NCBI RefSeq assembly: GCF_029255125.1
Contig: NZ_JAPUVR010000140.1
Coordinates: 1 to 64,000 of the forward strand
DNA length: 64,000 bases
Direction of reading: 5' to 3'
Source of the DNA: Accumulibacter sp.
Lineage (GTDB): Bacteria > Pseudomonadota > Gammaproteobacteria > Burkholderiales > Rhodocyclaceae
Under the pieces are notes generated by a model. The model made no database searches, was not told where the DNA came from, and saw only the letters and a program-made list of their open reading frames with translations. The translations under genes and the position numbers were made by a program. Of the stretch, positions 34,719-37,046 are shown piece after piece (positions within the stretch are counted from its first letter, which is position 1; the number at the start of each line of letters is the position of its first letter).

Positions 34719-36163
34719 TGAGGCGCAGGAGCTGGCGGGCACGCAAGCTATCGAGTCTCCTGGCCCGGATCAAGGGGGTTCTGGCTCGCTTCGGTTTTGG
34801 TTGGGGCCACAACCTGAAGCACGGCGAAGCCTACCGCCTCGGAAGCACGAAAGTGCGGGTACCCCTTGACGCCGTTCCTATCGAGATCACGCTCGGACTG
34901 AATGATCGGCGGCTTCATCTGTACCGCGAGAACCGCCTGGATCGGGAGGGGAAGCCGGTCTGGCTGGAGAGCTTCATCATTGTCGACCCGCGCACGTATA
35001 TGCGCCGGATCAGTGGCTTCGTGCGCCTGAGTCCGAAGAGCTGGCTTGCCCTGGGATCAAGCGACGAACTCCAGAAGGTCATTTTCGACTATCCCGCGGC
35101 AATCGACGAGCAGCACATGGTGCTGATCTACGGTCGAGATGAACTCATTTTCCGCAATCTGAGCGACGCGGGGACGGCGATTGCGCCGGTCATCGACAGT
35201 GTCGGTTTGAGCCGAATCGGTCGGCTGCGGCGGCTGCGCGAAATCATAGGTGGACCGATCGAACTGCTGCCGCGCGACGACGCATTGCCGCTGATCGAGC
35301 AGGTCAACCGCTTGATGCGCAGCGAAGCATACCGTTCGACCGACGAACGCGGTCTGCCTGGCGGACTGATCGCTTTGCCGCGCAGCATGACCCCGGTCAT
35401 CGTCGCCGACCTGCACGCGCAGGTCGACAACCTGCTCACCGTATTGGCTCAGAACGCCTTCCTCGACGCGCTGGAGGAGGGCTGCGCGGCGCTCGTCATT
35501 CTTGGCGATGCCGTCCATTGCGAGCTCGACGGACAACTGGCCGAGATGGAAAGCTCGATGGTCCTGATGGATCTGATCCTCCGCCTGAAGCTGTGCTTTC
35601 CCAGCCAAGTCTTCTACCTCCGCGGTAACCATGACTCGTTTTCCGAGGATTTGGCCAAGGACGGGATCCCACAAGGACTGTTGTGGGCGAAGGAACTCAG
35701 TCTCAAACGCGGTCCGTCGTACCTGAAAGCGATGCAGGAGTTTTATGACCTCTTGCCTTACGTAGTTGTCTCGCCCGATTTCATCGCCTGCCACGCGGCG
35801 CCTCCAACCAGCAAGGTGACTCGGCAGATGCTGATCGAGATCCATCAGAATCCCAGCCTGATCTCTGAACTGACCAGTAATCGCCTGCGCCGGCCTAATC
35901 GCCCGCTTGGCTACAGTGGGCGCAACGTAGCGAAGTTCCGCCATTCGTTGCACCTTGATCCGGCCACGCCGTTGATCGTCGGTCACACGCCAATCGACAA
36001 CGAGGCGACGGTTTGGCTGAACGTCGACGGAATCGAAAACCATCATGTCCTGTTCAGCGCGTGCCCGAACACCGTAGGGGTCTTTGCGCGTGTTGGCGGT
36101 AGGATGATACCCCTGATCTATCCGGTGGACGCTTTGAGCTCAATGATCAACGCACTGGCCTAG
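34718..36163 (+). CDS. Calcineurin-like metallophosphoesterase
   Basis: A 481-residue protein. The C-terminal two thirds is a binuclear metallophosphoesterase with all motifs: VADLHAQ (about residue 230), LGDAVH (262), LRGNHDSF (303), IACHAAPP (358) and IVGHTPIDN (421). The N-terminal ~200 residues show no known domain; they begin Arg-rich and then have an IEITLGLNDRRLHLYREN strand. The pattern is closest to Ser/Thr protein phosphatases (PPP). The substrate is unknown. Translation is coupled to the P-loop protein. Confidence 0.85.
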   Translation: MRRRSWRARKLSSLLARIKGVLARFGFGWGHNLKHGEAYRLGSTKVRVPLDAVPIEITLGLNDRRLHLYRENRLDREGKPVWLESFIIVDPRTYMRRISGFVRLSPKSWLALGSSDELQKVIFDYPAAIDEQHMVLIYGRDELIFRNLSDAGTAIAPVIDSVGLSRIGRLRRLREIIGGPIELLPRDDALPLIEQVNRLMRSEAYRSTDERGLPGGLIALPRSMTPVIVADLHAQVDNLLTVLAQNAFLDALEEGCAALVILGDAVHCELDGQLAEMESSMVLMDLILRLKLCFPSQVFYLRGNHDSFSEDLAKDGIPQGLLWAKELSLKRGPSYLKAMQEFYDLLPYVVVSPDFIACHAAPPTSKVTRQMLIEIHQNPSLISELTSNRLRRPNRPLGYSGRNVAKFRHSLHLDPATPLIVGHTPIDNEATVWLNVDGIENHHVLFSACPNTVGVFARVGGRMIPLIYPVDALSSMINALA

Positions 36164-36234
36164 ACGAGCTTGGCTGACGCAGTCCGCGCTGCCAGCGCGC
36201 AGGTAGGACGGCGATTTGCGTCCTGCGCCTTAGC

Positions 36235-36263
36235 TTGGTGTTCGATCGTACGTGGACTATAAT
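36235..36263 (+). promoter_or_regulatory. Strong sigma-70 promoter of ssrA
   Basis: TTGGTG (36235-36240), 17 bases, then a perfect TATAAT (36258-36263). This places transcription start near 36270, just before the tmRNA acceptor piece. Confidence 0.8.
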
Positions 36264-36269
36264 CCAACT

Positions 36270-36556
36270 ATGGTCGTAATTCCGGCAAACCGGAAGCGCT
36301 TTGGACGCGGGTTCGATTCCCGCCACCTCCACCACTACGGGGGTGTACTGGTTTCGACAGGGTGAAATATGGCGAGCAGGCGACCCGAGAGGCGACGGAC
36401 GTAATCCGCGCAAAACCACAAACGCCAACGATGAGCGTTTCGCACTGGCCGCTTAAGGCTTGCTGAGGGCGTAGCCGCCCGATAAACAGAATGGCTATCG
36501 GCGGGGGCTTCGGTCCCCGTCGTCATTTGGAAGATGGCTCGCGCGTTACCGCGAGC
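36270..36556 (+). ncRNA. ssrA: Circularly permuted (two-piece) tmRNA
   Basis: Transfer-messenger RNA that rescues stalled ribosomes. The halves are in reversed order. The acceptor piece comes first: a hairpin at 36280-36295, the T-arm GCGGG-TTCGATT-CCCGC at 36307-36323, the acceptor strand CACCTCC and encoded ACCA ending at 36334. Only four bases (CTAC) separate this from the coding piece, whose 5' end GGGGGTG (36339-36345) pairs with CACCTCC over seven positions including one G-U. The tag frame runs 36424-36456 and reads ANDERFALAA-stop. A C-rich hairpin (GCTCGCG/CGCGAGC) at 36537-36556 probably marks the 3' side; exact ends are estimates. Permuted tmRNA is known in some betaproteobacteria. 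Confidence 0.93.
36424..36456 (+). other. tmRNA tag reading frame (ANDERFALAA)
   Basis: Resume codon GCC at 36424, then AAC GAT GAG CGT TTC GCA CTG GCC GCT and stop TAA. The LAA-type C-terminus (here ALAA) is the degradation signal recognised by ClpXP. Confidence 0.92.
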
Positions 36557-36629
36557 TACGAGGGTCTAGGAGCTATGAGCGTCTAGCGATGCGGCATCGC
36601 GTCGTGCCCGTCGTCGCTCGGCGGCTGTC

Positions 36630-37046
36630 CTATCGGTTCTCTGCGGTCGTCAGGAAGCTGTTGATCTGTTCATCGACTTCGTTACGCTCCGCTTCGCCTA
36701 GCGGCTCACCGTCACGATGGGAGTTGTTGTAGTCGGTCAGTTGCGATTCGAGTGCGTTGAACTTGGAAGGCGGGGATTGGCGCAGGCGAGCCAGACGGCG
36801 GATCAGGCGTTGCTGGGCAAATGTTTCGGACGGGTCGGGCTTACCCAGAAGGTATTCGGAGCCACGCTTGGTCGTGACGACCATTGAGTTCGACTCAAGG
36901 CTGTAACCGGTGACCGGGGAAGTCCTGATGTGCGAAGACGAGGGAAACCGAGGATTGCTTCCGTAGACCCTTCCTTCAATACACACAAGGGTTTCGCCTT
37001 CACGGGTGATCAGTTCAAGAATCTTCCAGTTATTGAGGATATTCAT
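36630..37046 (-). CDS. Hypothetical protein
   Basis: A 138-residue soluble protein with no recognised domain. The first 80 residues look beta-rich (MNILNNWKILELITREGETLVCIEGRVYG) and the end is polar and helical. RBS GGGGAG lies six bases before the ATG, supporting expression. The gene is less G+C-rich than its neighbours and lies just past ssrA, so it may be acquired DNA. No integrase is present. Confidence 0.6.
   Translation of the reverse strand: MNILNNWKILELITREGETLVCIEGRVYGSNPRFPSSSHIRTSPVTGYSLESNSMVVTTKRGSEYLLGKPDPSETFAQQRLIRRLARLRQSPPSKFNALESQLTDYNNSHRDGEPLGEAERNEVDEQINSFLTTAENR

Follow-up and report, generated by a model that had tools for sequence, protein, structure and literature searches.

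The window, a stretch of 64,000 nucleotides from an Accumulibacter sp. contig, carries on its forward strand a complete permuted two-piece tmRNA gene of the beta type at positions 36270–36556. The preliminary description had read the locus in this way, and direct reading, ARAGORN and two Rfam covariance models concur. RF01850 (Beta_tmRNA) scored 221.6 bits at the locus (cmscan; E 3e-70, cut-off 84), RF04321 scored 163 bits (cmscan; Rfam gathering cut-off 47), and ARAGORN called a permuted tmRNA at 36242–36547. As in other permuted genes, the half with the acceptor and T-arm lies 5′ of the coding half. The acceptor piece occupies 36270–36334, with an approximate 5′ end (ARAGORN, cmscan). It contains the T-arm GCGGG-TTCGATT-CCCGC (36307–36323) and the acceptor stem 3′ strand CACCTCC (36324–36330), both read directly and by cmscan, followed by the discriminator A36331 and, as previously described, an encoded CCA (36332–36334). 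Direct reading also bore out that only the four bases CTAC (36335–36338) separate ACCA from the acceptor stem 5′ strand GGGGGTG (36339–36345; direct reading and cmscan), a length that presumes the encoded CCA as the mature end and would otherwise be seven. The two acceptor strands form seven of seven pairs, one of them G–U, and ACCA together with CTAC makes an 8-base loop that caps this stem in the predicted fold. The coding piece extends from 36339 to 36525, its 3′ end being approximate (ARAGORN, cmscan). Its tag frame with the stop codon TAA (36424–36456) encodes ANDERFALAA, the tag of the preliminary description, according to both direct reading and ARAGORN; the frame thus ends in a degron of the ALAA type that marks the beta form. 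A 3′ terminal hairpin of ten pairs with a TTCG loop (36499–36522; direct reading and fold) closes the gene, and RF01850 likewise ends in a hairpin here. The fold of the whole precursor was only slightly lower than that of shuffled sequences (z −1.08; 28 of 200 shuffles as low). We conclude that the locus is most likely a functional permuted two-piece tmRNA gene of a Candidatus Accumulibacter-like bacterium.

Upstream of the gene and on the same strand, the −10 hexamer TATAAT (36258–36263) follows the −35-like hexamer TTGGTG (36235–36240) at a distance of 17 nucleotides. This promoter had been called strong. The positions and the perfect −10 hexamer stand, but the −35 hexamer is weak, with three of six positions matching the consensus, and a consensus promoter scan of 36000–36800 reported no promoter. 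As judged by eye, many relatives have a TTG-type hexamer and a CATAAT-type hexamer at the same places. Transcription presumably starts at about 36270, where the acceptor piece begins.

Apart from the permuted gene, no tmRNA exceeds the cut-off in this genome, which is 99.96% complete. As suggested in the preliminary description, the one-piece model was compared with RF01850: no match exceeded the RF00023 cut-off in the genome, and the best RF00023 hit, with 33.1 bits, fell on the same locus. A one-piece tmRNA elsewhere in the genome was ruled out by this genome-wide search, and chance resemblance to a tmRNA by the concurrence of the two covariance models and ARAGORN. The partner protein SmpB is encoded on a different contig from the tmRNA gene (194.1 bits).

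We then compared the intervening segment with that of related genomes. RF01850 was found above cut-off in 29 of 61 genomes, namely in all 28 of the same genus (this one counted), in one of nine from other genera of the family (G035), and in none of the 24 from other families of the order. Past the genus the permuted form occurs only here and there: across 399 genomes of the order, a match at E 1e-15 was obtained in 16. Among the 29 loci, 27 junctions were read by script and one (CTAC) by eye, while locus L035 had no junction. Twenty-six of the 28 readable junctions have spacers of 3–4 bases (25 of four, one of three), and the two long ones belong to G035 and to the same-genus genome G002. Without the window, the same genus gives 26 readable genomes, 25 with 3–4 bases and one with a long spacer. 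Hence, the earlier remark that the spacer is extremely short holds for its four bases, but such a length is not unusual in this lineage. The short spacer is a lineage trait and not a one-off. A private assembly error was ruled out by the same 26 of 28 junctions, which cover the genus and G035 with the window counted. Genome G002 (L009/L152) has a long hairpin spacer and another T-arm type, unlike the other readable members of the genus, which may reflect gene replacement or a binning error.

The comparison of spacer lengths among permuted beta-type genes, also suggested earlier, was extended by a junction scan of a genome-contig collection and revealed two classes. Of 72 named loci, 29 have spacers of 3–4 bases and 43 have spacers of 23–29 bases. 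The scan, which requires exact conserved letters and covers 0–30 bases after the CCA position so that longer or diverged spacers escape it, found no named locus with a spacer between 4 and 23 bases and none shorter than three. Spacers beyond its reach occur in G035 (38 bases) and in G428 and G551 (42 bases each). Because genome and named loci overlap in shared contigs, their counts are not additive. Spacer length went along with the CCA end: CCA is encoded in 29 of 29 short-spacer loci and in 0 of 43 long-spacer loci, which carry CCC (34) or CCT (9) at this position. It is surprising that the long class lacks CCA, since the tRNA genes examined in five genomes of this class all encode it (16 of 16). 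All 28 four-base spacers of the named set start with C, for which shared ancestry accounts in part. Permuted tmRNAs with spacers of 30–33 bases and an encoded CCA were also seen in two other families of the order (L077–L081); by eye, the spacer of L078 prolongs the acceptor helix.

In the long class, spacer and acceptor stem form one continuous hairpin, with 10–16 pairs (median 12) beyond the seven of the acceptor stem in 42 unique sequences. When 20 pairs were written out for these sequences, 93.4% of the cells were paired as opposed to 43.9–62.8% in slid registers, a comparison that favours the written structure in that it was taken from one member of the set. Seven of the 20 pairs changed on both sides and nine were invariant; cells changed on both sides numbered 32 versus 10.6 in shuffles, a control that is inflated by the kinship of the sequences. 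Only two of 4200 letter-shuffled spacers folded as low, and each of the 42 real spacers beat at least 95 of its own 100 shuffles. In 23 of the 42, C74 and leader base −2 are unable to pair. Rfam draws RF01850 positions 110–141 (32 positions) as unpaired; they correspond to the spacer region and form a covarying hairpin in the 42 sequences examined, so the hairpin could improve the model. The window gene has none of this design: its spacer has four bases within an 8-base loop, and its CCA is encoded. This contrast with the hairpin spacer and missing CCA of its relatives, which was absent from the preliminary description, is more informative than the shortness as such.

To follow the history of the two classes, we mapped the short/long label onto trees of RpoB and of the tmRNA itself. 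The RpoB tree contains 28 Rhodocyclales genomes that were chosen rather than drawn. Thirty-five of 36 selected entries were searched (all but L148), 30 gave a match, and frames were picked by BLAST; two rows were dropped, L241 since G1087 has two full copies and L254 since it shares its sequence source with L255. Rows with an insertion were trimmed to the best aligned segment (938 residues). On this tree the label needs seven changes, at least six of which are forced by well-supported branches. The tmRNA tree, with 75 rows after ten incomplete loci had been skipped and repeated sequences entered once, needs three. Here, 26 of the 29 short rows fall into one clade (100/100), whereas their hosts do not form a clade. 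The discrepancy between three and seven changes could stem from gene transfer, from bins placed wrongly or from the poor resolution that so short a gene provides. A spread of the short-spacer gene among Rhodocyclales by transfer from few origins, which would concern the history and not the mechanism and is compatible with our preferred account of the latter, thus draws on both the discrepancy and the scattered hosts. A single short clade was, however, rejected on the tmRNA tree (p-AU 0.0135), and the short genes of Dechloromonas H13 with Azonexaceae s22, and of AWTP1-18, fall among long ones. Moreover, the tree may be misleading, given its 259 alignment columns and a long branch (1.18), and many hosts are metagenome bins. 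The neighbouring genes decided neither for transfer nor for convergence; Accumulibacter-type loci share their main gene families with one another, as do those of the long group, but the two sets do not share them. We therefore regard spread by transfer as a serious possibility that falls slightly short of an even chance. The short spacer class is not one clade, and the two trees together with the p-AU rejection support the short form as a simplification that evolved repeatedly. Judging from its spread, the long form is probably ancestral.

Very short spacers were also found farther afield. An RF04321 search of the phylum matched 87 of 299 genomes; with this genome and G428 set aside, loci from 84 of the remaining 85 were read, leaving out G901 and the second copies in G978 and G1053. 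Both of the latter genomes have two RF04321 matches and perhaps two permuted tmRNA genes each. Seventy-nine of the 84 loci were resolved (all except L188, L200, L209, L236, and L237). We take this other-class set to be alphaproteobacterial, as its distribution and T-loop sequence suggest. Its spacers, counted from behind the CCA position, have a median length of 30 bases (range 5–115), which is below the 75–125 bases between the two sections given for alphaproteobacterial and cyanobacterial genes in the accessible part of an earlier paper (PMC2704228). CCA is encoded in 67 of the 79 loci. The long spacers of this set show a weaker tendency to fold, with 44 of 70 folding lower than about 95% of shuffles. 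Only four of the 79 loci have spacers of 11 bases or less (5, 6, 10, and 11), all with CCA and in genomes of 0.9–2.5 Mb. Within our own class, G085 from another order has the 4-base spacer CTAT, and G650 from another family of the same order has the 5-base spacer TCGAC. Spacers of 4–6 bases combined with CCA are hence known from two further groups of this class and from a second class of the phylum, and G085, G650 and the other-class cases bring the groups with spacers of less than seven bases, apart from the present one, to at least three. The G085 gene (L039:1501–1691), on a 703 kb contig, resembles the other-class set in its T-loop type (GGCGGTA) and has the tag ANDDNFEVALAA; it may represent a transfer or a separate permuted lineage. 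The G650 gene (L082:1501–1825), in a single-contig genome, contains a long insert, and its predicted tag, which ends in LNVA, is atypical; this tmRNA-like gene may be mobile or decaying.

How is such a short spacer removed? In the precursor the acceptor strands would pair, with the 8-base loop ACCA plus CUAC on top. RNase P, reading the stacked acceptor and T stems, would cut once, between C36338 and G36339. This predicted cut would open the loop, give the coding piece its 5′ end and leave a 4-base tail behind the encoded CCA, which a 3′ exonuclease would then trim back to CCA. After the addition of alanine, the two pieces would remain paired and act with SmpB in trans-translation. For the trimming, RNase PH is the best candidate that we found, proposed from its presence in the genome (378.1 bits); no RNase T was found above cut-off in the genome. 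The preliminary description had seen little room for two separate cuts. This objection largely loses its force, because one RNase P cut would open the loop and an exonuclease can trim a 4-base tail, so that a pair of endonuclease cuts is in principle unneeded.

A second cut could nevertheless occur if RNase P acted just 5′ of G36339 and an RNase Z-like enzyme severed the chain behind CCA, releasing CUAC as a tetranucleotide. In its accessible part, a review names RNase P and tRNase Z as the probable enzymes for permuted tmRNA in general (PMC3985003). In this genome, the best match to the RNase Z model TIGR02651 is a weak, RNase Z-like open frame that covers model positions 1–148 only (49.6 bits). 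Weak matches occurred in this genome and in all 11 genomes compared with it, yet none of the 12 exceeded the curated cut-off. The cut-off is strict, with the nearly full-length match of G650 (260.4 bits) falling below it, and together with the weak partial match this leaves the lack of RNase Z in the present genome unproven. All eight tRNA genes examined here encode CCA, and where CCA is encoded, RNase Z can often be dispensed with. Across the twelve genomes, the sample comprised 50 distinct tRNA genes on fetched loci, out of 572 RF00005 matches; CCA was found in 49 by script, and the remaining tail holds CCA upstream of the script's search position. RNase PH could deal with a short tail unaided. 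We consider two endonuclease cuts unlikely and proceed with the single RNase P cut.

The sequence offers the features by which RNase P recognizes its substrates according to the accessible part of one study (PMC9433436), that is, a stacked acceptor/T stem, a 3′ RCCA and a leader that is unpaired to RCCA. In that part of the study, RNase P is inhibited once at least two pairs form between leader and RCCA, a leader of only two bases reduces kcat/Km 5.2-fold, and A(−2) and C(−4) of the leader help the enzyme (PMC9433436). The window leader reads C(−4)U(−3)A(−2)C(−1). When leaders were set against A73-C74-C75 in register, two or three pairs were possible in 43 of 43 long members, versus two pairs in 0 of 29 short ones. 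In the long form, the commoner one among relatives, RNase P would have to open a helix, the trailer would be structured, and CCA would have to be added; the short form would free both RCCA and leader for RNase P. In CTGG and CAGG, the spacers of eight of the 29 short named loci, a shift of register would allow GG to pair with the two C residues of CCA, so RCCA may not be wholly free in all short members. The floor of 3–4 bases would fit a need of RNase P for the leader to about position −4.

One point speaks against this account. A 4-base spacer joins A76 straight to N(−4), and within such a closed loop it may be hard for RNase P to engage RCCA at L15 and the leader at RnpA simultaneously. Such a short loop could hinder the enzyme, in which case the precursor might stay uncut and work, if at all, as one continuous RNA, or the locus might be a decaying tmRNA. 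Charged tmRNA, however, requires a free CCA end. The gene is also the genome's sole tmRNA above cut-off, is kept in all 28 genomes of the genus and has an intact tag, T-arm and acceptor stem, which makes an uncut or decaying tmRNA very improbable. The account as a whole, with a functional permuted gene, a single cut by RNase P and exonuclease trimming, is in our judgment likely to be correct.

More broadly, the two classes might represent two processing designs. In a hairpin-capped design, the spacer would pair with RCC, CCA would be missing from the gene, and a helix of about 20 pairs would be unwound; in a minimal-loop design, one RNase P cut would open a closed loop of 7–8 bases and exonucleases would finish. 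The second would have evolved repeatedly, its 3–4 base floor being set by the leader positions that RNase P recognizes; to this proposal as a whole we give an even chance. Natural substrates with spacers of 3, 4, 5, and 6 bases stand beside close relatives with paired spacers of 23–42 bases, and their existence makes it possible to test directly how far RNase P can act on a closed acceptor loop and what leader/RCCA pairing does. In the accessible parts of two reviews, the opening of permuted precursors with very short spacers is left open or merely proposed (PMC3978253 for tRNA, PMC3985003 for tmRNA). No description of these two classes of spacer appeared in the titles and abstract beginnings of the literature searched. 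That scope does not extend to the paper with which work on the beta lineage began (Sharkady and Williams 2004), and we do not claim priority. The accessible part of the paper on the public tmRNA database, which holds 11,946 permuted sequences and presumably already includes Accumulibacter tmRNAs, mentions intervening sequences and names long extremes and no short ones (PMC11915505).

The gene itself is of a known kind, and its precursor form is what is new; we regard it as a clean, testable variation and not as a new kind of system. With the Beta_tmRNA family RF01850, known from Thauera, Azonexus, and Dechloromonas, it shares gene order, T-arm, acceptor stem, a tag ending in ALAA and the 3′ hairpin. 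In the long members of this family, by contrast, CC-N is followed by 23–29 bases (43 named loci), or by 38 or 42 in three more genomes; the triplet is CCC or CCT instead of CCA, and the spacer hairpin runs on from the acceptor stem. Permuted tmRNAs of the other class have the same permuted order, and four of 79 loci are likewise short (5–11 bases) with CCA, but this set differs in its median spacer of 30, in encoding CCA in 67 of 79 loci and in its T-loop sequence. The permuted tRNA genes of Thermofilum pendens likewise encode CCA, and one has a spacer of a single base, the removal of which is called an open question in the accessible part of the review (PMC3978253). They specify, however, archaeal tRNAs whose halves are re-joined, whereas the halves of two-piece tmRNA stay separate.
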